Positions 15,872 through 39,769 of a stretch of DNA of 64,000 nucleotides are shown piece after piece (within the stretch, counting starts at the first letter, position 1; each line of letters begins with the position of its first letter). The DNA is from Spisula solida (taxonomy: Eukaryota > Mollusca > Bivalvia > Venerida > Mactridae): assembly GCA_947247005.1 (NCBI GenBank), contig OX365950.1, positions 15,140,720 to 15,204,719 on the forward strand. The letters are read 5' to 3'. The translations under genes and the position numbers were made by a program. The notes under the pieces are model-generated. The model was given only the letters and a program-made list of their open reading frames with translations. It searched no databases and was not told the DNA's origin.

Positions 15872-16404
15872 CTGTTTAAAAACGTAACGATTAAACAAGA
15901 TTGGTCAAACGCAATGTAGCTATCATACAACTGTTAATATCGATATTTAGACAGTATGGTTGTTTCGCGATAACGACCTTCACTTGTCCACCGCTGGTCT
16001 GGATTTCTAAATTGCTATCATTCGCGGAGGCAATTTAAATCTTTATATAAGAATTTTGGGGGAAATGAAAATAATAAAATAAAAATGTCAAAATTATATT
16101 ATTCTTCATTCCGTGGCGGAAAATTCTGTCGCTTGGAGGCAACCGAGGGCATATATATGTGTTTATTAACACTGACTCAATACAAAATATATTTTGCATT
16201 TCCATGGGGTTTCTCTCGGTCTCTACTGGGGTCCCTGTGGTTACAAAATTCAGTCATCTGACTGTAGTTTTTTATGAGCATTTAAGACTTGTCCGAGCGT
16301 TGTCTCAAATAAAAAACTGGCATATCTTAAAAGGTCTCATTTGTTTAGATAAGTCTCATTTGGTTAAAATACATATTTACTGTAGACATGATTTTTATAC
16401 GGTA

Positions 16405-16712
16405 CATCGAGCGTACCTGGTCTTATTACGGGGTACCTGGAGTGTACGTCCCGATATAGTTTTCATATCGAGTACCTGGAGCGTACTCGATCTTATTACG
16501 GGGTACTTGGAGCGTACGTCCCGATATGTTTCAACTCGAGTACCTGGAGCGTACTCGGTCTTATTACGGGGTACTTGGAGCGTACGTCCCGATATGTTTC
16601 AACTCGAGTACCTAGAGCGTACTTGGTCTTATTACGGGGTACTTGGAGCGTACGTCGTCCCGATATATTTCAACTCGAGTACCTAGAGCGTACTCGATCT
16701 TATGACGGTGTA
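16405..16712 (+). repeat. Minisatellite, ~68-bp unit, 4-5 copies, hairpin-forming
   Basis: TTATTACGGGGTAC recurs at 16423, 16493, 16561 and 16629, with a degraded copy at 16700 (spacings 70, 68, 68, 71). Each unit holds hairpins with 7-base loops: 16467-16491 pairs ATCGAGTAC with GTACTCGAT around CTGGAGC, and others pair GGTAC/GTACC or GTAC/GTAC around ATCGAGC, CTGGAGT or TTGGAGC. The 175-codon frame across it (16159-16686) repeats the same peptide and reflects the repeat. Confidence 0.9.
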
Positions 16713-18274
16713 CGACATATTTATCTCGGTAGTTTGTTACAGTAAATTGATATACGGTTTGATAAATAAATCGTGAATCCATGCCCTCGGTTGTTGCATT
16801 CCTTAAAGCGTGTTTAACTCTAACAGCGTGACCCGTTAGAGTTCAAGTCAACATGGCCATTATATGCCACTTTAATCAAATCTATTAACATATGCTTATC
16901 AGGCAAGTCTATATCTACTACATGTACAATAATATGCATTACTATAGTGTTTGGGTAATATTCGTTTGTCATTTTCTAAAAGGCAATTATATAATTAAAT
17001 AGTGATTACTGTCTACAGTTGTTTTTTTAAATTTTATCTTGGAATAACAACCAAATACTACTGCATTAAATTAGACAGTAATATAAATTACTGCAGTATT
17101 TTCAAAGCGTGTCATGTGTAACATACATGCACATTAATATTAATATTTAAAGCAATGAAAGAGTTACGATAAGCTGGGCTTATGGCGAGGTTAACAAAAT
17201 ATCTCATCAAATCTCAACATTATACACATTGTTTGGATATATTCCATTAAACACAATTAAATCACCGTTGCACAATGAAATAAACTAGGCCCGGAATTAC
17301 GTTGGTATAAGTAAACGTCTATTATTTCTTCTAGCTGGAGATGGAACTAAAATAAAATTTCAACATTCCATTAGCAACCCCCGTTATATCTAGACTTAAG
17401 AAAATATTTACTTCCTACATGCATTGTGAAGAAATTAATGTTACTGGGGGCGAAGAAAGGTCTATTTCGGCGCAATTCGTACAAACACAATAATTAAGAC
17501 TATTTCTGGTAACATGTAGTCACAAACTAAATAATCATGTTTAATGTGATAATTATGATACTAGACTGACTGGCAATCCTTGTGCGAAATATCACAAAAG
17601 ATGGCATGGATCACTGATTTATTTGCCGGCGTTTAAATTATTATACATCAATCGTTGTAATCCAACTTCTAAATTCAATTTGAAGATCTTGAAATTACAA
17701 ATAATAAATGTTTATGTCAATGCTGCAGCAGATAAAGTGTAAATGAATAAAACTACACGAGGATAAATTGAGAATTTTCTCGAATAAGTGTCTGAATTTA
17801 AGAAAAATCGCAAATTAGGGCTTTGCATTTTATTACTATTACAAACTCCGAACACTGTTTCTGAATTATGATTATCATTACATTTTTAACACGTGTAACG
17901 TATGGACATCAAATGAAAGTTGTGTGAAAATATATAGTACGATATCTCATAGCGATACACTGATTTGTATGTTACAGGCGAGACTACGGCCAGATTGTGT
18001 GTGATATCAATCATTTCACATCATTCTTACTTGGTTTGCATATCTTATGTTAAGAATTCCAAACTGATCTCTATTGACTTGTTGCTTTGTAGTAAGGGCC
18101 ACGTATCGATGTCACGACATATCTGATATTTCAGTGTGGCATATGGAGAACGGTTAGAACAGTTAGAGATAGAGAACATGGCAGAGAAGCCATGGATTAG
18201 CATGTTGGAATCGGGAGGCATATGTTTACGCTCTCCGGGTATTCAGGTTTTGGGTATTTCGTTTAAGTTAATAG
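16713..18274. other. AT-rich non-coding stretch before the LTR element
   Basis: No frame above 65 codons, no RNA gene and no repeat recognised. Confidence 0.4.
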
Positions 18275-18278
18275 CTAT
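18275..18278. repeat. Target-site duplication CTAT, left copy
   Basis: CTAT directly precedes the first TG of the 5' LTR and recurs directly after the CA end of the 3' LTR at 26616-26619. A 4-bp duplication is within the range known for Ty3/gypsy-type integrases. Confidence 0.8.
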
Positions 18279-19512
18279 TGTGAGGCATGGCCTCAGATGT
18301 TTAGAACATCATTTTTATGGCCTCAGATGATAAGTAAAGGCCTCTATTTAGTCTATTTAGCTCCCAATGTTGTTGTGCTATTTTTAGTAACAATGACTTA
18401 CATGTACATTTTTAGAGTTTGGAAAGCGCTATTGTCTATATTATGCTATGTCATGCCATAATATTATAGATATACTTAGATATTTATTAGATTTAGCTAT
18501 TTACCTTAACAATCAGATGCTAGATCGTTGCTGTATCACAATATTTGACTTTATGTTCGTAGCATTCTGGAAAATGTGACATTTGTCCGCCATGTTTGTT
18601 TTTGGTAGTTGCAACTTCCGGTTAGTATTTAATCTCTAACCTTCAAAGTCAGTTATATTTTATTTATACCTTGAATTATTATACGTTGGTACTTTATAAT
18701 AGAATGGTATGTTTTTATGTTAGAGGTAATTTAGTAATGGTATCTTAATGTTCAGTCATGTTTACCGGCTCCTAGGCCAAGTTTTATTCTCTAAGCTCAT
18801 TTGCATACCAGCCTCGTTTTGGGTATACCAGTTTTCTTCACATTGCCACTGTCCCCAGAGCAGGCCAGACGTGTTTCTGGAGCTCTCTTTATTTTGTTAG
18901 TATTTGTTAAGTAATCTTTCATTCAACTTTTATTCTGAATTGCTTCGATTAGATTATTATTTTAGACTTTATTGAGGTCATTATCTGTAATGTCATTTGA
19001 CATTTGGCGGTCGTGTAACTTGGGCCTACTTTAAGCAATTTGTCGTCTGTCTGACTCTGACTTCGAACTATCGTTATTTTAGTCTTAGTAATTACTTAGT
19101 ATTTGGTCTGATATCCTCTCTTGTCTTTTTGTTAAGCCCTTTTACCTAATAAATTCACGTTAAGCCGAAAGGAACCTTGTCTGTACTCTTTGAATTGATT
19201 ATTATCTTGGCATTTGTCACGGTCTCGCACAGTTGTTAGCCGCTATCTGGTCTCTTGTAGCCAGTTTAGCCACTCTCAAGCTGTGATACACGCTACCAGT
19301 GTATTTAACCAGTTTTCAACCAGGCTATCGGTCCGAGTTGTTGTTAGACCTATGTCTATACTCTTGAGCATATCACATATTGATTGCTGTTGTAGCACCA
19401 CAGGTGTTTGTGCACATACATATTTTGCACATAGGTACTCGAGTGCCTTTCAGTACATCTACACAGTCTCAGTGCACTCACATACAGTACACACACACGC
19501 ACGGGCGTTACA
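18279..19512 (+). repeat. 5' LTR
   Basis: 1,234-bp direct repeat, TG...CA bounded. A polyadenylation signal AATAAA lies at 19148-19153, followed by GT-rich sequence, which would place the R/U5 border near 19180-19200. A hairpin with six base pairs plus a wobble and the loop GCTACCA lies at 19286-19304; it has the same loop type as the leader hairpins. An open frame at 19214-19579 has no recognisable product and is not called as a gene. Confidence 0.93.
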
Positions 19513-19516
19513 AAAT

Positions 19517-19530
19517 TGGTGGCAGCGGTG
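19517..19530 (+). promoter_or_regulatory. Candidate primer-binding site
   Basis: TGGTGGCAGCGGTG begins 4 bases after the 5' LTR. A TGG start is what pairing with a tRNA 3' CCA end requires. I could not assign the tRNA from memory. Confidence 0.5.
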
Positions 19531-19589
19531 CAGATCTTGTCTCTCCGAATTTATTTTCAGTCCATGTTTATATACATGACAGAGAACTT

Positions 19590-20432
19590 CAAGGCTAATT
19601 CCAAGCCTTGGTGAGTATATCAGTAGTAGTTAGTTGTTTATTAGTGATAAGTCAGTACAAAAACCAGACAACGTTAGGAGCTAAGCCGTTACCAGGCTTA
19701 GGTTTAAGTCGCTCCCAGACTTAAACGGTGAGACAAAGCCGTTACCAGGCTTAGGTAAAAGGGTGTTATTGTGTTTACTGTTGTTAACTGTTCGGTACGT
19801 TGAGCGGATTGGTTGTTCCGTGCCCTGCCGATTATCTTAAATACGTTCAGACTGCCATTCCTGTGAGGTTTGGGAGGTTTAAGTCGCTTCCAGACTTAAA
19901 CGACGAAAGCTGTTTCCAGGCTTTCGAGGTATTTTTATAACAGGTAACTACTGCCGTTCCCAGGCAAATAAGTATCTTTAAAGTACAAACTTTATTTAGT
20001 ATTCCATGTTACCGTCAGTCTTTACCATCCATCGTGGACGACAGCCGTTACCAGACTTATAGTCGTTACCAGACTATATTAATTACACATGCATTTCCTT
20101 ACAGTACTGTCTAGTCGCTACCAGGCTGATAGTTGTTGCCAGATTATACCCCGTGCCAGATTCATAGTCGTTACCAGACTTTATTAATTACATATGCATT
20201 TTCTTACAGTACTGTCTAGTCGCTACCAGGCTGATAGTTGTCGCCAGACTATACTTTGCCAGACTCATACCGGGTAGTCGTAACCAGATTATATTGATTG
20301 CAAATTATTTCCTTACAGTACTGTGTAGTCGTTACCAGACTTACAGTTGTTGCCAGTCTGCCTAGTCGTTTCCAAACTTTGTAAATCACACGTAACTCAC
20401 TTACGGTACTGTCTAACTGTTTCCAGGTTAGA
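19590..20432 (+). repeat. Array of ~17 leader hairpins with a shared 7-nt loop and variable stems
   Basis: Each unit is stem - 7-nt loop - stem, with the loop ending in CCA and the closing base G. Examples: 19590-19610 CAAGGCT/AGCCTTG, loop AATTCCA; 19681-19701 CTAAGCC/GGCTTAG, loop GTTACCA; 19702-19726 GTTTAAGTC/GACTTAAAC, loop GCTCCCA; 19736-19752 AAGCC/GGCTT; 19877-19901 GTTTAAGTC/GACTTAAAC, loop GCTTCCA; 19904-19926 CGAAAGCT/GGCTTTCG, loop GTTTCCA; 19952-19966 TGCC/GGCA, loop GTTCCCA; 20058-20078 TATAGTC/GACTATA; 20129-20147 and 20234-20252 ATAGTT with GATTAT or GACTAT (loops GTTGCCA, GTCGCCA); 20412-20432 TCTAACT/GGTTAGA, loop GTTTCCA. Further weaker units are at 20112, 20166, 20217, 20275 and 20327. 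Stems change as complementary pairs, including G-U to G-C exchanges, which suggests selection for RNA structure. A role as Gag-binding or packaging signal is inference. Confidence 0.85.
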
Positions 20433-20497
20433 GAAGCCAATTGTATGCCAATATACACTGTATTGTAATTGTTGTTTAACATAAACCTTGTTTACAG
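19611..20497 (+). other. Candidate leader intron carrying the hairpin array
   Basis: A strong 5' splice site (GTGAGT at 19611-19616) follows the first hairpin with no gap. A good 3' splice site (TTGTTTACAG, AG at 20496-20497, with a TTTAAC branch-like sequence upstream) lies 13 bases before the gag ATG at 20511. Splicing would remove 887 bases containing nearly all of the leader hairpins and join a short LTR-derived exon to gag. The sites are read directly; use of the intron is inference and needs RNA evidence. Confidence 0.4.
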
Positions 20498-20510
20498 TCC
20501 AAACCTGGAG

Positions 20511-21950
20511 ATGGAGTTTTCCATGGATCCAGCTGATATACCAGAAACTAACCAGACCAAGTATACCAATAATGAACCCACTATAGAACTACAACCTTCC
20601 AGTGAAGCGACACAGACCATCAATAAGGCCTTGGGGACAGAGGCAATGTCAAACCAAGTTTCGATGGACGGTGGAGCCAACCTAGAGGTGACTGGGACAG
20701 ATGACAAGTTGGTACAGGGTACCCCTTTTAGAGAAGAAACCTGGCACAGGCGTACCAGGAATGAAATAGACGTTTCTGTTGATCAGAGATTTTTAGACCT
20801 TGGCAGTTTTACACCATATCCAGTGGATCAGTCAAAGCCCCGGGGGTCTGTCAATTCCATGCATGGTGAGACTAATCAAGGGATGGGAGGTATATACAGT
20901 AAATTCTCCAAGAGGTCCTCGGCTGGTGGTCAGGCGACCCATGCTATAGATCGCGGCCAGGTACCTACGGGATTAAGGGAAAACGATCCACTGGATGAAT
21001 TGGGGTATTGGAGGAGAGGGCGGCAGGCTTTCCGGGCGAGCTGTAACCGGCATCCTCGAGACTTCTTACCTCATGAATGGTGTAGATCTGGCCATTATCA
21101 ACACAACCACATAAAACCACCAACTTTTGATGGCGCTAATGACTTCAATGCTTATTTAACGCAGTTTGAAATTACAAGTGATTTAAATGAGTGGAGCTAT
21201 GAAACAAAAGCCGTCCAGTTAGCAGTATCTTTGAGAGGAGGAGCTGCAGAAATCTTAAATGATATTCCCATAGAGAGACGTAGAGACTATGACTTAATTG
21301 TCAAAAGTCTTATGGACCGATTTCAACCACAAAATCAGAGACGTCTTCATGTCGCGAAATTAAGAGCCAGAATAAGAAAGCGAAATGAACCTTTAGAGGA
21401 GTTGGCCATGGATATAAAGAAAATGGTGAGACTAGCCTACCCAGAATTGAATATGAAATGTAGGGAAGACATGACGTTGGAATATTTCACCGAAGCCCTA
21501 AACGACGATCAACAAAGAAGGGATCTGATTGTGGGAGGTCCAACCACGATGACAGACGCATTGAGGTTGGCTACAGAAGTAGAATTAAGTTATTCCCGTC
21601 AAAGCCAGACGTTCGCTAGATCGGTCCAAAACAGTGACTCGTTATTGAAAAGGATAGAGAAATTAGAGAGACTTTCAGAAACCCATGCTACTTGTACTTA
21701 CAGGATAGCCAAAATTGGAGAATACTCTGGATTAGATGCAAATTCTGCTAAGGTTCATGCTAATCTTCATAAAAGAATATGCAACTATTGTCATGCTCCT
21801 GGGCACATTAGGAAGTATTGCCCCATACGCATAGAGGGACAGAATCAACACAGGAAAAATCATCAGAACCCACAGATTAGAAATTCATGGACACAAAATG
21901 ACGAAATGAAGTACCAAGGTCCTATTGCTAGAAAACAAGGAAACTTTTAG
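20511..21950 (+). CDS. gag: Gag polyprotein of Ty3/gypsy type with CCHC zinc knuckle
   Basis: 479 residues from the first ATG, which follows the candidate 3' splice site by 13 bases; the frame stays open a little further upstream without an ATG. Residues 1-200 are polar and low in recognisable structure. Residues about 200-360 match the retrotransposon capsid/Gag domain in style: an opening P-x-F-D-G segment, a Y-L-x-x-F-E helix, an alternating hydrophobic helix ending in L-R-G-G-A-A, and a later R-F-x-P-x-N/Q segment with a basic run. A CX2CX4HX4C zinc knuckle lies at residues 424-437 (CNYCHAPGHIRKYC), preceded by a coiled-coil-like stretch and followed by a basic glutamine/asparagine-rich tail. 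No protease or polymerase frame is fused or follows. It should form the particle and bind the element's RNA. The intact frame fits recent activity. Confidence 0.88.
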   Translation: MEFSMDPADIPETNQTKYTNNEPTIELQPSSEATQTINKALGTEAMSNQVSMDGGANLEVTGTDDKLVQGTPFREETWHRRTRNEIDVSVDQRFLDLGSFTPYPVDQSKPRGSVNSMHGETNQGMGGIYSKFSKRSSAGGQATHAIDRGQVPTGLRENDPLDELGYWRRGRQAFRASCNRHPRDFLPHEWCRSGHYQHNHIKPPTFDGANDFNAYLTQFEITSDLNEWSYETKAVQLAVSLRGGAAEILNDIPIERRRDYDLIVKSLMDRFQPQNQRRLHVAKLRARIRKRNEPLEELAMDIKKMVRLAYPELNMKCREDMTLEYFTEALNDDQQRRDLIVGGPTTMTDALRLATEVELSYSRQSQTFARSVQNSDSLLKRIEKLERLSETHATCTYRIAKIGEYSGLDANSAKVHANLHKRICNYCHAPGHIRKYCPIRIEGQNQHRKNHQNPQIRNSWTQNDEMKYQGPIARKQGNF

Positions 21951-22385
21951 TAGCTAAGTAACAGATTTATGGAATTTGAAGTTGCCTACACATAGATTCT
22001 TAATACTTACATGAGCAGGATCACGAGATGAAGTGTTTGAATCAACTCAACCAAAGCAGTCATGATTGTTCCAGAAGAGATTTTTGGATAGTGAGATTTT
22101 GAGGAAGTTGTAGACAGAAGACAGATTATCCTACCACGGCCGGGGAAGATAATCTGTATGTAAGGTGATTGATTGAGCGGGCGAGAATTCCAAAAATGAC
22201 CTTGACCCCCTGAGGAATTCTGTTAAGATGACTGATGACTAGCCGCAGTTGAAATTGGTCAACATTCCATTACGCTGATCCTGACAATTTTGGAGAAATA
22301 TTCTGCATTTGTACACCGTCTACACGTCTTGCCCTGTTTAGTTGCAAATTGTCACATCATAGTTTTTGTGTGCGTCACAGTACAA
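21951..22385 (+). other. Post-gag non-coding segment with two stem-loops
   Basis: No frame of note. A perfect 10-bp stem pairs 22121-22130 (ACAGATTATC) with 22148-22157 (GATAATCTGT) around a 17-base loop that again starts with CTACCA. An 8-bp inverted repeat AGAATTCC / GGAATTCT pairs 22184-22191 with 22214-22221. Both would be near the 3' side of gag in the transcript. Confidence 0.6.
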
Positions 22386-22513
22386 GTGCCGCATCGTTCA
22401 AGTGCAGTGTCACAAAGTGCCGCATCGTTCAAGTGCAGCGTCACAAAGTGCCGCATCGTTCAAGTGCAGCGTCACAAAGTGCCGCATCGTTCAAGTGCAG
22501 CGTCACAGTACCA
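22386..22513 (+). repeat. Tandem 31-bp repeat, four copies (GTGCCGCATCG type)
   Basis: Copies start at 22386, 22417, 22448 and 22479, exactly 31 bases apart, with one difference between copies (AGTGT versus AGCGT). The junction GCGTCAC-AAA-GTGCCGC forms a 7-bp stem with one mismatch and a 3-base loop. The overlapping short frames in several phases are simply the repeat being open, not genes. Confidence 0.9.
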
Positions 22514-22550
22514 GTGCCGCATCTTTTGTAATTTTTTATATGAATGCCAG

Positions 22551-23500
22551 GTCACAATACCAGTGACACTTCTTTTGTAATTTTTTATATGAGTGCCGCG
22601 TCACATTACCAGTGACATGTTTCCAGTGATGTCACGTTCCCAGTGACATGTTTCCAGTGATGTCACACTCCCAGTGACATGTTTCCAGTGATGTCACACT
22701 CCAAGTGACATGTTCCCAGTGATGTCATACTCCCAGTGACATGTTCCCAGTGCCATGTTTCCAGTGATGTCACACTCCCAGTGACATGTTCCCAGTGATG
22801 TCACACTCCCAGTGACATGTTCCCAGTGATGTCACACTCCCAGTGACAGGTTTCCAGTGATGTCACACTCCCAGTGACATGTTTCCAGTGATGTCACACT
22901 CCCAGTGACATGTTTCCAGTGATGTCACACTCCCAGGGACATGTTCCCAGTGCCATGTTTCCAGTGATGTCACACTCCCAGTGACATGTTTCCAGTGATG
23001 TCACACTCCCAGTGACATGTTCCCAGTGATGTCACACTCCCAGTGACATGTTTCCAGTGATGTCACACTCCCAGTGACATGTTCCCAGTGATGTCACACT
23101 CCCAGTGACAGGTTTCCAGTGATGTCACACTCCCAGTGACATGTTTCCAGTGATGTCACACTCCCAGTGACATGTTTCCAGTGATGTCACACTCCCAGGG
23201 ACATGTTCCCAGTGCCATGTTTCCAGTGATGTCACACTCCCAGTGACATGTTTCCAGTGATGTCACACTCCCAGGGACATGTTCCCAGTGATGTCACACT
23301 CCAAGTGACATGTTCCCAGTGATGTCACACTCCCAGTGACATGTTTCCAGTGATGTCACACTCCCAGTGCCATGTTCCCAGTGATGTCACACTCCCAGTG
23401 ACATGTTTCCAGTGATGTCACACTCCCAGGGACATGTTCCCAGTGATGTCACACTCCCAGTGACATGTTTCTACAGTGATGTCACGCTCCTAGTGACATG
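22551..23500 (+). repeat. 31-bp satellite-like array of loop-motif hairpins
   Basis: Nearly 30 units of 31 bp, each reading ATGTCAC - ACTCCCA - GTGACAT - GTTTCCAGTG. The first 21 bases form a perfect 7-bp hairpin with loop ACTCCCA. The same ATGTCAC arm can instead pair with the preceding GTGACAT around the loop GTTTCCAGTG, so two registers compete. Leading units carry loops AATACCA (22551-22567) and ATTACCA (22600-22616), a variant has GTTCCCA (22629-22649), and the last has GCTCCTA (22479+1000, i.e. 23479-23499). A 262-bp higher-order duplication is visible (22842 to 23104; 22950 to 23212). Confidence 0.9.
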
Positions 23501-25367
23501 TTCCACTACTGCCAGAGAGAACCCTTGATGACCTGGAGGTTATCTCGCTTCCAGAGACATGATCATTGTGCAGATGCAGTGGTTTTCCCTAACCTCTGAA
23601 GTAAGAGTTCAACCTACTTATCCACTTGATTTATATCGCGTGAAATTTAACTTTAAATGATGATACAATTTATTTATACGCGTTGGACAACTTACTGGAA
23701 ACAGAAGAAGATTAAGTATATGTATTAATTGTATATTTTCTGTTTTTATGATTGTAATTGTAGCTATGAATGTAATGGAACAATTTGTGTAATTGTGAAA
23801 AAGTTTGTCAGTAAGTGTCTGTGCATACATTGAATTGATAATTTCAATTTAACCATTTAGGCTTTTATCACTCGGGTAAATTTTATTATGTTTAATTAGG
23901 ACTGCTTGTAAGCCTCTTATGTTATCTTAGACTGTCTGAATTGCAATTGAACTATGAATACTGGTTTAATTCATGCCGTTTCGGAGACTTGTATATATTT
24001 TTCTTATCATTACTGTAAGTTAAATAATTTGTACAGTGTTCAGGGTGTAGAGGTTGTATTAGTTTAAAGGGACTGTTTCATAGAACTGGTGTTGTATGAA
24101 TTCTTAGTATACTACTATAATTTACAGTAGAAGTTACATCTTAATGTTTGATATTGTATATTAAATTTTTTTTTTTTTGGTGTGTTCTTGTGTATAGTTG
24201 TTTTTGTGAAATGCAAAGTTAAGTCCGTCATTTTGGTTCAACTACCACTACTTAGAGGTGGCAAAATCTCAGTCTCTCAGATGTTGTGAAATCAGTTGTT
24301 ATCAATGCCATTTGTGTCCACATTTTATATGGTGACATAGCACATGTTTAGTGACATACTGTACTTGGTATGTTAAGGTAAATTATATTGCTAGCATCAC
24401 ATGTACATTTATATATTTGAGTATTTTTTTTTCATGGCTATCACAGCTTATACTGTTTGTAAAGTTATAATATCTATGCTTAGAGGCAAGTAATTTAATG
24501 CCAGTCTGTTTCATAGCTCTTCAGTAAAAGTATTAAACGTCAGAAAACGGTCTGTATGGTCTGCTGAAGACTAAAAAATCAGGGTGCCGTCTGTTTCTTC
24601 ATTATACCCCTTAGACATTTCTTTTATTGAACCTTAGAGCCTCTGAGTATTTTTGATTATTTGCGTTGTCACCTACAGGTACCTTTAAAATATTTATCTT
24701 TAGATGATGTAATTTAAATTTTTGCATGTTATTCAAACTTGTTATGTATGTAATTAGACTATGTTATTTTGATGTTATACCAGATCATTTATGGCACTAA
24801 TATTGTTATTTTGATGAATTTGTTAAACATTCATGGACTGTCCATTGTCAATTTTTTGAGTTAGAGAGTAAGATTAGTTCCACTACTTATGTGTATTGTA
24901 CACTTGCTGTCTGATAGTACTATTGTGATCTTATGAGGATGATATTAGATAGTTTAGGCTAATAAATGGCAGTTGTATGATGACAATATTGAAAAATAAG
25001 CATTATCAATGTGATTTTTGTTTCAACTTAAACAATTATTGCGGTTAGGTTAAGTGATAGAATAAATAGTTAAGGTTAATAAAAATGTTCTTTTAAAGGG
25101 GCATATTTTATGATTGATGTTCTATTGTTGATGTTTAAAGCAATAGGTCTTGTCTGTTAATATATAGCAGTGGTGCTATTTAAATAGGAATGTAATAGAT
25201 GCTATAATTAACTTAATGATTACATTTATGACATATGATGAAGTTGTATTTATGTTAATTTTGTTGTATAGCTGTTATATATGTGTTAATTGTTACAGTG
25301 CACATTTGAGATATTTTCCTTTAAAGGCTCATGGTGTTAATTTGAATTTCGAGGACGAAATTTTGTC
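23501..25367 (+). other. Long non-coding 3' interior of the retrotransposon
   Basis: About 1.9 kb, T-rich, with no frame over 75 codons and no visible polymerase or integrase motif. One more loop-motif hairpin (TCTC/GAGA, loop GCTTCCA) lies at 23543-23557. Where an autonomous relative would carry pol, this element has only this spacer. Confidence 0.75.
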
Positions 25368-25378
25368 AGAAGGGAAGG
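25368..25378 (+). promoter_or_regulatory. Polypurine tract
   Basis: AGAAGGGAAGG, all purine, ends 3 bases before the 3' LTR. This is the position of the plus-strand primer in LTR retrotransposons. The sequence just upstream (GAGGACGAAA...) is also typical of Ty3/gypsy-type 3' ends. Confidence 0.75.
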
Positions 25379-25381
25379 TAA

Positions 25382-26615
25382 TGTGAGGCATGGCCTCAGA
25401 TGTTTAGAACATCATTTTTATGGCCTCAGATGATAAGTAAAGGCCTCTATTTAGTCTATTTAGCTCCCAATGTTGTTGTGCTATTTTTAGTAACAATGAC
25501 TTACATGTACATTTTTAGAGTTTGGAAAGCGCTATTGTCTATATTATGCTATGTCATGCCATAATATTATAGATATACTTAGATATTTATTAGATTTAGC
25601 TATTTACCTTAACAATCAGATGCTAGATCGTTGCTGTATCACAATATTTGACTTTATGTTCGTAGCATTCTGGAAAATGTGACATTTGTCCGCCATGTTT
25701 GTTTTTGGTAGTTGCAACTTCCGGTTAGTATTTAATCTCTAACCTTCAAAGTCAGTTATATTTTATTTATACCTTGAATTATTATACGTTGGTACTTTAT
25801 AATAGAATGGTATGTTTTTATGTTAGAGGTAATTTAGTAATGGTATCTTAATGTTCAGTCATGTTTACCGGCTCCTAGGCCAAGTTTTATTCTCTAAGCT
25901 CATTTGCATACCAGCCTCGTTTTGGGTATACCAGTTTTCTTCACATTGCCACTGTCCCCAGAGCAGGCCAGACGTGTTTCTGGAGCTCTCTTTATTTTGT
26001 TAGTATTTGTTAAGTAATCTTTCATTCAACTTTTATTCTGAATTGCTTCGATTAGATTATTATTTTAGACTTTATTGAGGTCATTATCTGTAATGTCATT
26101 TGACATTTGGCGGTCGTGTAACTTGGGCCTACTTTAAGCAATTTGTCGTCTGTCTGACTCTGACTTCGAACTATCGTTATTTTAGTCTTAGTAATTATTT
26201 AGTATTTGGTCTGATATCCTCTCTTGTCTTTTTGTTAAGCCCTTTTACCTAATAAATTCACGTTAAGCCGAAAGGAACCTTGTCTGTACTCTTTGAATTG
26301 ATTATTATCTTGGCATTTGTCACGGTCTCGCACAGTTGTTAGCCGCTATCTGGTCTCTTGTAGCCAGTTTAGCCACTCTCAAGCTGTGATACACGCTACC
26401 AGTGTATTTAACCAGTTTTCAACCAGGCTATCGGTCCGAGTTGTTGTTAGACCTATGTCTATACTCTTGAGCATATCACATATTGATTGCTGTTGTAGCA
26501 CCACAGGTGTTTGTGCACATACATATTTTGCACATAGGTACTCGAGTGCCTTTCAGTACATCTACACAGTCTCAGTGCACTCACATACAGTACACACACA
26601 CGCACGGGCGTTACA
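25382..26615 (+). repeat. 3' LTR
   Basis: Same 1,234 bp as the 5' LTR at an offset of 7,103, with one difference found (T at 26198). It is preceded by the purine run AGAAGGGAAGG at 25368-25378, the expected polypurine tract, and followed by the CTAT duplication. Its copy of the loop-motif hairpin is at 26389-26407 and its AATAAA at 26251-26256. Confidence 0.93.
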
Positions 26616-26968
26616 CTATTTTATCAATTTGGCGTCTGTTCGGTTGAAATTATATTTCTATTAACAATAACGGATTGGTTTAATTGTTGGAATTGTCTTA
26701 ATTTGATCAAATGTTTTATTCATAGAATTATGTTAGGATTTAAGTTTATAATTTATTGTGCATCTTGTTAGAGAGGTATTTTAGTGTATGTAGAATTCTA
26801 AATTAATGATGGTTGTCGGTTAATTAAAATGTATTTAACTAAGCTTGTACTTCTAGTTTTAATGTAGTACTTAAAAGCCCACTATAGCAATTACGTGATG
26901 TAAGGCCGTTCATACATGTACATATGTTGAATGTTGATTTCTCTCTATGTGCCTCATTTATTCATGTA
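26616..26968. other. Short AT-rich spacer between LTR element and mariner relic
   Basis: No frame, RNA or repeat recognised. It continues the host sequence interrupted at 18278, apart from the duplicated CTAT. Confidence 0.5.
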
Positions 26969-29639: not shown

Positions 29640-32600
29640 CTTTCTGCTACAGTGAGGTACATGCGTGTATCCATGTAAGCACATCTCTCACGTCTCCTTC
29701 GTGTCATTAGAATGTCGAACGACAACAGCTTTCAAACAATTAATACACGTGACAAGACTTAAGAGAAAAACATTCTTGATAGTTGCAATTATCTGTCAAA
29801 TTTAAATATTCAATTTGATTAGACCGTGCCAGATTTCTGAGAAAATAGAATTATCAAGATGTTTTACTACCACGTTTTGATTAGACACTTGATCAGGCTA
29901 CAATAATACTCACGAGTAAAGCTTTATGAGAAACAGTTTGTTATTACCTGAAACCTTATTCCGTTGAGTCATTCCGTCAATTCCCTGATTAAATACCGGT
30001 AGATGGAGTATCTCCGTAAATGGTGATAACCGTCAAAAAACTTTACCAATCTAGTACGCCTATCGTCTTAGGAGGCAACGTTTCTGTCATTGCAAATATG
30101 GGCTGTAAGGCGATATATTGCATTGTTCTGTGTCAGCCCCCTGTGAGTACCTCCTGGTCAGTTTGGTATTGTAGTGCGTCAGCTCCCTGTGTTTGTTTAA
30201 TATGTATGAGTAATTGTGTCTGAATGTTTAAGGAAGGGACTTATTTTCCCGCACGTTATCACAAAAGATAAATTAAGTTGTTACATGGAAATTCTGATAT
30301 GGTAGACACATGTTAGTGATCCCTAGAGTATTAGTATGCATATCCCTACTGTAATGACCTGTCGAAGGAAATAACTATTCCAAATCCCTCAAATGACAGC
30401 ATTCACATATTTACCAGACAATTTATGCACTTAACCCAATCTGTTTACACTATATAAGTCGTTGGCAGACAGAATCGTTTGATCATATAAATACTCACAA
30501 TGAAAATGACGTATGACAGAAGTTACTCCGTGATTGTGACAGCGATGTTCCAATATAGGGATTCATTATACAGCTTGAGACGTCTTGGGAAATTGTGTTT
30601 TATATGCGCCATGAACACAATTGCAGATGAAAAAAGTTGTTTACGAAGTCCACTTTACTAAGTGCATTCTTGACGCGTGTGCAGTTTCTTCGATATTAGT
30701 TCTTGTGGTGCAATTTACTTAGGCAGATTTTAGCATATTTCATTTGATCCCCAATCACAGGCGTTTGAAGAATTGTTTTATATCCTGTCACAGCTGCGTT
30801 CTTTACACTAATAGCGTATTAGCTTTGAGAAAATAAAAGGCAACGTGATTTGTTTTGGTATTGTATAAAGTCGTTTTAAAACAAGGGTCCATTATGGGAT
30901 GGCTTTTAAACATAAAATAGAAGGCCTCGTTTACGCTACTCCATGGAGCCATAACTTCTACCAAACAACGACATCTCAAACATTTCAATCATGTTTGCAT
31001 TCCATGATTGTGTCATTTATTTACATTACTCTTTTCAAGTACGATCAACGGGTTGGTTTTGCTAGTACAAATCAAGAACTACAAACTGTCACGTTTGTAA
31101 ATATATTAGTACACTTTTAGATAACTGTATATATGATTTTAATAAGATCATGGAATTATGTAATTCCGTGATAAGATTAAAATCGACCGGCATTGCTTTT
31201 TAAATCTGGTCTGTATGTCATCAACACAATTTTGTTTTCTGGTGTGCGTAAAATAATTTCACAGTTACGTACACGTAGCTAATGCGCTCTCGTTTGTATC
31301 TAAAATATAAACTATTTTTCCAGTGAAAATTTGGTCTATAATTAGAATCTAGTATTTATTCTTTGTGTTAAATTAAACGCATAAATAATAGCGTCTCATT
31401 TTGCAGACATAGTAAGTATGTAATGGAATTATTTGTAATATCATGTATTTCAGACGTATAATGCTAGGTAATGTGTTCTGCCTCATGACTCTATTTATCC
31501 TTATCGTGATCTCTAATTCTTATTGTTTTTTATAACATCAGACATATAATTCCTCGTTTCCCTCGGATGTTTGTCATTTCTCCTATTTTTAGAAGCATGT
31601 CGACGGTTCTCTGAGATGTGTTTGTACGGAGGCACATATAGCTGCATTGATGTTAATGTCAATGTAACGTTCACTACCAAAACTATTTTTTATAATATTA
31701 AATAATTTCTTCAACACTCTACCATTGATTAACTTTCAAATATTTTTTACCCAAACATTATACGGAGTTATTAAATTTGTCATGTCTTTTCAACCCCAGC
31801 GAAACATGTTAATCAGCCCATTTTGCGTTTCTTCAATATAATTGAGCCCATCATTATTCTTAGTGGTTGTGAGCGTGTAACAGTTTGCCTTAAATAACAT
31901 TGAATGTACATTTTGTATATATATTCCGCAGGTCTGCAAGTCCGTCCGCTTACTTGTGTTCTAACTATGTTTTTGCCAAGTCGCTCTACTCACATTCATG
32001 AATTGTGAGATGGAGGTTCTAAACAGGTGGCAAGATGAATATTAAGGTCCATGCCATGCACGTTTGATTGTTCAAATGCTACTCATAAATTCATAATTAA
32101 CTACGGACATGTTGCATGATCAAGAAATTGAAGCGGTGCAATGTGTTTTCTATTCCCCGTGTGGAGAACAAAACTTTAACTGAACAACCGTAATGTCTGG
32201 CTACTAAGCCCAACGATATATTTCTGTAGTGGTTGCTGACTTTATTTGATATATACCATACGGACATCCGATCCTGTAATAGTTTACCAATACATCGTAA
32301 GTCGGTACTTTTCGTAAGAAATATTTAGTAGAATGTCATAAATCAGCAAAAATGTAATAATTCAGAATGTCATTTAAGAAAACTACTGCGGTGCTAAAGT
32401 TCAATTACACGTGGATGAACCCGTCCTAATGGTAATAAGAGTCCATAATATCCAGTAATCATTCTCCTTTCATTGGCGAGGCATACATTCAGATTGAAAA
32501 ACAATCGAATTGTATGGAAAGCAGACATTTACAATGGTTATGATAATAGAATAATTAGAAGACAATGTCATGTAGTTAGCAAACACGAAATAAAAAGTTG

Positions 32601-37738: not shown

Positions 37739-38852
37739 GCATTTATATTCCGCTGGTCTGCAAGTCCGTCCGCTATTTAGTTTTCTAACGATGTTTTTGC
37801 CAAGTCGCTCTACTCACGTTTATGAATTGTGAGATGGAGGTTCTAAAAAGATGACAAGATGAATATTAAGGTCCATGTCATGCTCGTTTGATTGTTCGAA
37901 GGCTTCTCATAAATTCATTATTAACTACGGACATGTGGTATGGTCAAGAAATTGAAGCGGTGCAATGTGTTTTCTGTTCCCCGTGTGAAGAACAAAACTT
38001 TTAACTGAACACTCATAATGGCGGGCTAGTAACGCAATTTATTTTCATCACTAAGCGCAACGATAGTTTTCTGTAGTGGTTGCTGACTTTATTTGATATA
38101 TACCATACGGACAACCGATCCTGTAATCGTTTAGCAATACGTCGTAAATCGGTAATTCGCGTAAGTAGTATTTATTAGAATGTCATAATTCAGCAAAAAT
38201 GTAATAATTCAGAATGTCATTGAAGAAAATTACTGCGATGCTAAAGTTCTATTACACGTGGAAGAAACCGTCCTAATGGTAATAAGAGTCCATTATATCC
38301 AGTAATCATTATCCTTTCATTGCCGAGGCATACATTCAGATTGCAAAATAATTGAATTGTATGGAAAGCAGACATTAACAATGGTTATGATAATAGAATA
38401 ATTAGAAGACAATGGCATGTAGTTAGCAAAGACGAAATAAAAATTCATCATAGTTGCCCATTGGTCGATGATAAGCATTAACGAGAAATGGATTTGGACT
38501 TTTATTATACCCCCGAAGCAATGTATACTAGGCATAGCTCAATTTTGTCACACGAGCCATGGCCTATCCGACGTGTCAATTGGAGTGGGTTGCCTGTGAT
38601 TTATAACGTTCATTGTGCATGGTTTAAAGATATGGGTACTGATTTACTAATATTTCGTAAATGTCACGTACATCTACGAATACATCTTAAATTTTCTGTT
38701 AAGTGCGTTTTACTAATCGATCGCAAGTTGTTCCTACATTTAAGAATACCTATTAAATATTTAACGTAGACAGGGCCATAATATTACCAATATATCGGGA
38801 ACCAGATAATTTTTTATGATTAAAAATGTTTTTATTACTAATCACCGTCTAT

Positions 38853-39343
38853 AAGTAAATTGCACCACAAGAACTAATATCGAAGAAACTGCACACGCGT
38901 CAAGAATGCACTTAGTAAAGTGGACTTCGTAAACAACTTTTTTCATCTGCAATTGTGTTCATGGCGCATATAAAACACAATTTTCCAAGACGTCGCAAGC
39001 TGTATAATGAATCCCTATCTTGGAACATCGCTGTCACAATCACGGAGTAACTTCTGTGATACGTCATTTTCATTGTGAGTATTTATATGATCAAACGATT
39101 CTGTCTGCAAACGACTTATATAGTGTAAACAGATTGGGTTAAGTGCATAAATTGTCTGTTAAATATGTGAATACTGTCATTTGAGGGATTTTGAACAGTT
39201 ATTTCCTTCGACAGGTCATTACAGTAGGGATATGCATGCTAATACACTAGGGATCACTAACATGTGTCTACCATATCAGAATTTCCATGTAACAACTTAA
39301 TTTATCTTTTGTGATAACGTGCGGGAAAATAAGTCCTTTCCTT
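38853..39343 (-). repeat. Inverted copy of block A segment 30238-30721
   Basis: Reads as the reverse complement of 30721-30238 with high similarity, beginning TAAATTGCACCACAAGAACT and ending near TGATAACGTGCGGG. It joins block B directly, making a breakpoint where a direct paralogue switches to inverted orientation. The same segment is in direct orientation in block D (41850-42310). Confidence 0.85.
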
Positions 39344-39769
39344 AGAAAATGATGCGTTTATCTAGCTGCCATTAAAAGGCACCATATGGCAATCTTGTAT
39401 TCATTACGCGTTTGTTGTCAATTACAGAGTTCCTGTTAATTATATAAAGATGACTGTCGTTAGACGAATTTCGTTTCTTAGCAAACTGATACGCGTAGTC
39501 AACTGTCACGTCACAAGGACACGGTACAAAAACTATCGTCAAGGAAGAATTAAGGCTGGGAATCTAAATTTCTACACATTTCTGTTGCTACCTATTTAAA
39601 ATTCATGAAATTACAATTTTAATCGGTCGCAGGAGAGTTCTACACAATTTGATAGTTCATATAAGATGGGTATTACCGTAGATATAATTTAATCTGAAGG
39701 TTATATACGAGATCTCTATATTGACTCAATGATAGAATAGTTTTGGTTTTTGAAATTATATGTACTAGT

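Follow-up and report, generated by a model that had tools for sequence, protein, structure and literature searches.

The 64,000-nucleotide stretch of DNA analysed here (the window) contains a complete LTR retrotransposon at positions 18279-26615, which encodes Gag and has no detectable Pol. The coordinates of its features are given below on the + strand. The 5' LTR (18279-19512), which starts with TG and ends with CA, was delimited by comparison with the 3' LTR (25382-26615). The two LTRs show 1 mismatch over 1234 positions and, judged by its sequence, the element is very young. A 4 bp target duplication, CTAT, occupies 18275-18278 and is found again directly after 26615. Inside the LTR an AATAAA poly(A) hexamer was read from the sequence (19148-19153); what lies 3' of it would presumably be U5, and as such part of the 5' leader of the RNA. 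Directly 3' of the 5' LTR comes TGGTGGCAGCGGTG (19517-19530), which we take to be a primer binding site matching the 3' end of tRNA-Leu. The sole long ORF of the element (20511-21950) encodes a Gag of 479 aa with a single CX2CX4HX4C motif. It is followed by 31-nt repeats, AAGTGCCGCATCGTTCAAGTGCAGCGTCACA (22384-22507), and by an array of hairpins (22551-23557). The purine tract AGAAGGGAAGG (25368-25378), presumably the polypurine tract, precedes the 3' LTR. The element thus has the paired TG...CA LTRs and the 4-6 bp duplication of the Ty3/gypsy (Metaviridae) elements, this range being the one given for Ty3/gypsy-like LTR elements in PMC12440569. With an open Gag ORF and no detected Pol, it also has the composition of the TR-GAG elements, i.e. 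LTR elements with Gag, or Gag and protease, only. Outside the element, the window contains a 68-nt tandem repeat (16402-16713; 4.5 copies, 90% matches) and two inverted repeat arms of 493 nt (30229-30721 and 38852-39344), 98% complementary and 8.1 kb apart. Several repeated blocks surround these arms (29.8-44 kb of the window), and the region probably corresponds to other mobile elements.

Between the primer site and gag, the leader carries a series of small hairpins with a common loop. Hairpins were counted when a 7-nt loop ending in CCA was closed by an uninterrupted stem of 4 bp or more, G-U pairs included. By this rule 16 hairpins are present in the leader, compared to a mean of 0.38 and a maximum of 4 in 1000 dinucleotide shuffles, and they account for 16 of its 30 NNNNCCA sites. 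The first (19589-19611) has a stem of 8 bp and the loop AATTCCA. Three hairpins follow between 19681 and 19752 (19681-19701 and 19702-19726, which adjoin back to back, and 19736-19752), and three more between 19877 and 19966 (19877-19901, 19904-19926 and 19952-19966). Eight are found in the region of a 105-nt tandem repeat (20058-20341), starting at 20058, 20112, 20129, 20166, 20217, 20234, 20274 and 20327. The last is TCTAACT-GTTTCCA-GGTTAGA (20412-20432). Several units in 20051-20356 are copies inside the 105-nt repeat, so that the 16 stems are not independent words. Among the 14 leader sites that do not qualify, three with a GTTNCCA loop (20047, 20349, 20368) form 4 of 7 pairs and resemble decayed units; three without this loop (20025, 20433, 20495) likewise form 4 of 7 pairs.

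Other features of the leader were observed. Four pairs among the 16 hairpins stand back to back with a gap of 0-2 nt (19681-19726, 19877-19926, 20112-20147 and 20217-20252), as if spaced for a dimeric reader or for coaxial stacking. The leader (19513-20510, 1 kb) contains 6 ATG, about 16 being expected at equal base use. A 10-nt palindrome, ACAGTACTGT, lies between the hairpins at 20101-20110, 20206-20215 and 20315-20324, with the variant ACGGTACTGT at 20403-20412, and all 11 leaders compared below have 1-5 copies of it. A role as RNA dimerisation site is possible; as a class, 10-nt palindromes are not rare, the leader having 3 and the window 132.

The preliminary description of this locus had placed the array at 19590-20432. 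The 16 leader hairpins are indeed there, and the array extends beyond them on both sides. One hairpin, GATACAC-GCTACCA-GTGTATT, is located in U5 (19285-19305; an identical unit at 26388-26408 in the 3' LTR) and is the only one among the 15 NNNNCCA sites of the LTR. After gag, 22 of the 80 NNNNCCA sites of the tandem repeats are hairpins, compared to 1 of 38 in the gag region. The element therefore carries approximately 40 hairpins: 16 in the leader, 1 in U5 and 22 after gag. The 3' array is mostly made of ATGTCAC-ACTCCCA-GTGACAT, its final unit being TCTC-GCTTCCA-GAGA. Between neighbouring hairpins at 22600-23470 we observed a second loop, GTTTCCA or GTTCCCA, for which 5-6 of 7 pairs are possible, so that the same arms could form either of two sets of hairpins in this region. 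The loop of an iron-responsive element is CAGUGN, and CAGTGA occurs in the 3' array; this candidate was rejected by eye, a matching upper stem being absent. All seven stem pairs quoted in the preliminary description are found in the sequence at the given place. The closure of the loop by G that it reported applies to most units; the first hairpin (19589-19611) has A on the 3' side.

The array is specific in its loop length. When other loop lengths were tried at the 30 leader CCA sites, length 7 gave 16 hairpins and each other length from 3 to 12 gave 0 or 1. In the 11 leaders, with stems of at least 5 bp, length 7 gave 135 hairpins, followed by length 4 (15), length 12 (10) and length 5 (9). 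The arms of the 30 leader sites also pair specifically with their own partner: 137 of 210 positions are paired, whereas permuted partners give a mean of 107 and a maximum of 129 (none of 20000 trials reaches the observed value). A second test was restricted to dissimilar arms, from a set of 85 sites of the LTR, the leader and the post-gag region chosen by their loop. With arms identical at no more than 9 of 14 positions, 19-24 units were retained, and pairing with the own partner exceeded permutation in all 50 draws (p <=0.0005). Unlike stem words therefore bear one type of loop, as can be seen from TACAC/GTGTA, AGGCT/AGCCT, AAGCC/GGCTT, TAGTC/GACTA, AACT/GGTT, GTCAC/GTGAC and TCTC/GAGA. In the predicted global fold of U5 and leader, 9 of the 17 hairpins have open loops and pairs formed with a mean probability of 0.85 or more, one has 0.54, and 7 have at most 0.50, all of the latter belonging to the 105-nt repeat region. 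Allowing only pairs within 60 nt brought 10 of 17 hairpins to 0.75 or more, a partly different set in which some are rescued and others lost. The leader as a whole folds only slightly better than its shuffles (z -1.5; 1 of 20 shuffles equally good).

The orientation of the loops is strongly biased. Over the whole window, the + strand has 38 R-NNN-CCA loops with stems of at least 5 bp, of which 36 lie in the element, and the - strand has none. Considering R-NNN-CCA-R sites, a stem of at least 4 bp is present in 41 of 100 on the sense strand of the element and in none of 29 on its antisense strand; in the rest of the window, both strands together, the proportion is 8 of 272. Since a palindromic stem has no strand whereas its loop has one, this bias points to RNA; tandem copying of the hairpins contributes to it.

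We then considered the other genomic copies. The leader matches at least 12 distinct places in the same genome: itself (100%) and 11 further places (85-97%). Eleven leaders were compared, the window copy included and one match (L007) left out. In these, 135 CCA-loop hairpins reach 5 bp or more, their stems drawing on 18 five-base words, and none is in antisense; one copy (L010) has gained additional hairpins through 25-nt duplications. CCA being part of the search rule, the consensus concerns the other loop positions: all 135 loops start with a purine, position 2 is a pyrimidine in 126 and position 3 is U in 113; position 4 is free (A 76, T 39, G 12, C 8). The closing pair is C-G in 94 hairpins, U-G in 33 and U-A in 8. 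Of the 11 leaders, 6 have an intact U5 hairpin next to them (in L010, U5 is not adjacent).

The preliminary description stated that both arms of the stems change together. Within one array this applies from unit to unit; from copy to copy, the changes that keep pairing are nearly all one-sided. In the alignment of the 11 leaders (100 pairs in 10 copies), 830 stem cells are unchanged, 37 have a one-sided change and are still paired, 2 have a two-sided change, 23 are broken and 108 are gaps. The pair-keeping changes are nearly all to or from G-U. Counted as distinct states, a stand-in only for independent events, 22 of 37 are still paired, compared to an expected proportion of 0.29 for random single changes with the transition share of the spacers (p=1.3e-4), and the counts are the same when the window copy is omitted. 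Compensatory covariation across copies is thus not evident, with 2 two-sided cells among copies that are 85-97% alike and too similar for a stringent test. In the 3' array pair-keeping is approximately at chance, with 9 distinct states kept and 22 broken; the 175 units of this set were chosen by similarity to one unit, to which some fit badly, and come from the window and all of the ten stretches except L029, which has none. Its outermost pair occurs as A-T, G-T and G-C.

Diversity among the leaders does not distinguish hairpin from spacer columns: no reduction was found in the hairpins (difference 0.0004, reached by 4830 of 10000 permutations). It had been suggested that loops varying as freely as stems would refute the proposal of a recognition site. 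This is partly what is observed, since pi is 0.077 for the loop positions taken jointly, 0.055 for the stems and 0.063 for the spacers. The higher value of the loops is mainly due to position 1 (0.166), which is always G or A in intact hairpins; the three positions of CCA have 0.035, 0.038 and 0.060.

Turning to the proteins, twelve database entries match the window Gag at E<=0.001, including Mercenaria mercenaria LOC128557321 (43% identity), and a search of viral contigs and genome contigs found no relatives. The CX2CX4HX4C motif, the zinc knuckle that characterizes Gag of Ty3/gypsy-like elements, was seen by eye; Pfam zf-CCHC is detected in 4 of 5 aligned Gags, the window's own being the exception. 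Ty3_capsid (6.6e-4) and Retrotrans_gag (0.0046) are each detected in 1 of 5, and neither in the window Gag. A PDB search gave weak stathmin matches only (best E 0.013), which were not retained. Gag is open over its full length in four copies (the window, C20, C1 and C8:6.72 Mb, the last with 60% identity) and broken or partial in the rest. One copy with an open Gag (leader L005, downstream stretch L024) is only 60% identical to the window in Gag and 94% in the leader, so that there is no visible co-variation of loop and Gag. A gag swap by recombination is the likely origin of this copy, because the best-aligned stretches of its LTR and post-gag regions also show 90-95% identity. The dN/dS ratio of Gag is 0.37 between the window and L024 and 1.07-1.69 in three near-identical pairs (5-14 changes each). 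The latter values give no sign of current selection on Gag in the pol-less copies.

Pol was identified in one related copy, located at C3 (leader L012, downstream stretch L030), which has gag remnants and a Pol ORF of 1238 aa (1298 from stop to stop). RT, RNase H and integrase are present in gypsy order, and protease below the cut-off only. Searching with this Pol by tblastn, we found none in the window element and none in the nine other downstream stretches among the ten searched (the C1 copy was left out). In the genome, the best 37 of 1577 candidates were scored; the L030 copy matches at 100% and the next at 46%. One pol-bearing copy of the family was thus found, compared to ten checked copies without pol. 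The pol-bearing copy has both hairpin arrays: its Pol is followed by the 31-nt repeats of the window, then by 46-nt repeats with GTGTCAC-AATACCA-GTGACAC hairpins. Its 3' LTR was not found in the remainder of L030 and the next 9.2 kb. Downstream of its array lies a minus-strand ORF of 441 aa (L030, 1803-3128) to which Pfam gives no match at E<=0.01; it is possibly part of a different element.

Distant relatives of the Gag in the same genome were surveyed for the array. Among 92 Gag matches, 30 were excised as loci, of which 14 are distant (32-35% identity); these form about three groups of near copies with LTR and leader borders unmapped. The survey covered 1500 nt ahead of each Gag match, of which 0.6-1.2 kb are upstream of the ORF in the 8 distant loci checked; 10 loci have no CCA-loop hairpin of at least 4 bp there and 4 have 2. 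A further 1.5 kb upstream in one distant family contains none. A locus of the window's own lineage (L047) also lacks hairpins in these 1500 nt, its leader being about 2 kb away from gag. The array looks like a trait of the Gag lineage to which the window element belongs.

From these results, the hairpin array is likely to be an RNA recognition array. A conserved loop on varying, paired stems had been put forward in the preliminary description as the mark of such sites, and both the sense orientation and the pair-keeping among copies favour this proposal. Our preferred reading goes further: the array would be a multivalent recognition platform, with the element's own Gag as candidate reader, serving packaging and assembly. 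We give it a probability of about one half. The RNA of U5, the leader and the 3' non-coding region would be assembled from many small hairpins, each presenting the same heptaloop, mostly R-Y-U-N-C-C-A with C-G or U-G as the usual closing pair; the sequence of the stem would be irrelevant provided that it pairs. A protein reading the loop could then occupy many sites on one RNA. The most likely reader would be Gag, with its zinc-knuckle end, and for an element without pol the array could act as a high-avidity ticket into particles, Pol being supplied by a relative. Retroelement packaging signals are usually found in the region before gag. Gag would be the most economical partner, since the sites follow the Gag lineage and lie in the part of the RNA that retroelement Gag usually recognises. 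Several results weigh against this reading: the hairpins vary among copies as much as the spacers do, two-sided changes hardly occur, the 3' array keeps its pairs at chance level, seven of the 17 hairpins have low pair probabilities in the global fold, the leader as a whole barely outfolds its shuffles, only 6 of the 11 copies have an intact U5 hairpin, and a leader 94% identical to that of the window accompanies a Gag with 60% identity. The 14 distant loci that lack the array, moreover, represent only about three groups.

The evidence for RNA recognition is equally compatible with a reader from the host, i.e. an RNA-binding protein acting on export, stability or translation of the unspliced RNA. 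The few ATG of the leader (6 versus approximately 16), which would suit a 5' UTR that is scanned, go in this direction. On the other hand, the array was seen in one lineage and not upstream of the 14 Gag-related loci of the same host (whose leaders are partly covered), which a host factor of general use would presumably serve as well. The element also has no counterpart in Rfam (no covariance-model match at E<=1 in 18200-26700), and to our knowledge the hairpins contain no known binding motif. A host reader may be regarded as the most serious competitor, with roughly half the weight of Gag.

A palindromic unit could also have spread by tandem duplication without any function, template switching during reverse transcription perfecting its arms. 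The element does contain plain tandem duplications (of 105, 31 and 25 nt), diversity between copies is as high in the hairpins as in the spacers, and the 3' array keeps its pairs no more often than chance predicts. Correction of one arm by the other, however, would not be expected to produce the one-sided G-U changes of the leaders (22 of 37 versus 0.29), and three separate regions carry the purine-first CCA loop on stems of unrelated sequence. We consider this origin improbable.

Recognition of the word RYTNCCAG in duplex DNA has a model in the Su(Hw) insulator of Drosophila gypsy, where short sites are likewise repeated in the leader, between the primer site and gag. Su(Hw) sites are DNA and are not known to have paired variable flanks, and a duplex site needs neither complementary flanks specific to each site nor a fixed 7-base gap between the arms, so that a DNA array is very improbable here. 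Equally slight is the chance that the loops act in the primer step, by kissing the primer site or mimicking the primer: RYUNCCA does resemble the 3' end of tRNA-Leu (..CGCUGCCA..) and is complementary to TGGCAGC, part of the primer site, and TGGNARC occurs on the sense strand of the element only at 19520 (the primer site) and 23696, but full pairing requires G at loop position 4, found in 12 of 135 loops, and the commonest loop of the 3' array, ACTCCCA (101 of 175 units), fits worse.

If the hairpin is a Gag aptamer, as in the preferred reading, dispersed packaging signals would be extended to LTR retrotransposons, the array would show how a pol-less parasite stays mobile, and it would provide a compact RNA tag for Gag-based capsids. 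More tentatively, and with less confidence than we place in Gag recognition itself, approximately 40 such aptamers might let a Gag-only element outcompete its pol-bearing relative, which could account for the ten pol-less copies found against one. The candidate signal is short, repeated and definable by its sequence, and is open to a direct binding assay.

No LTR element with a shared-loop hairpin array appears among the matches listed in the open-access literature. Retroviral, Ty1 and Ty3 packaging regions generally consist of few structures unlike each other, e.g. pseudoknots and kissing loops, whereas one type of hairpin is here repeated 16 times in the leader and again after gag. Like the present array, they lie close to the 5' end of the RNA, ahead of gag or at it, and are presumed to be recognised by Gag. 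Such regions are the subject of PMC4974528 and PMC8096270; the former calls the Gag sites of yeast Ty1 and Ty3 'not precisely defined' and mentions the suspicion that 'multiple RNA sites' play a part. The words 'hairpin' and 'stem-loop' are absent, by word search, from the available part of PMC12440569. The plant TR-GAG elements, as presented in PMC6022998, are likewise LTR elements with a Gag domain and without Pol; the present element differs from them by its animal host and by its hairpin arrays, which lie outside the TR-GAG definition given there. If Gag is the partner, the array would work like the dispersed packaging signals of MS2 and other ssRNA viruses, for which PMC6281560 describes many stem-loops with a common loop motif on one genome RNA; several stem-loops with a common loop motif are also what we find here. 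The viral signals of that source are scattered and bound by coat protein, whereas the hairpins of Spisula solida, as candidate binding sites, are gathered in dense non-coding arrays of an LTR retrotransposon.
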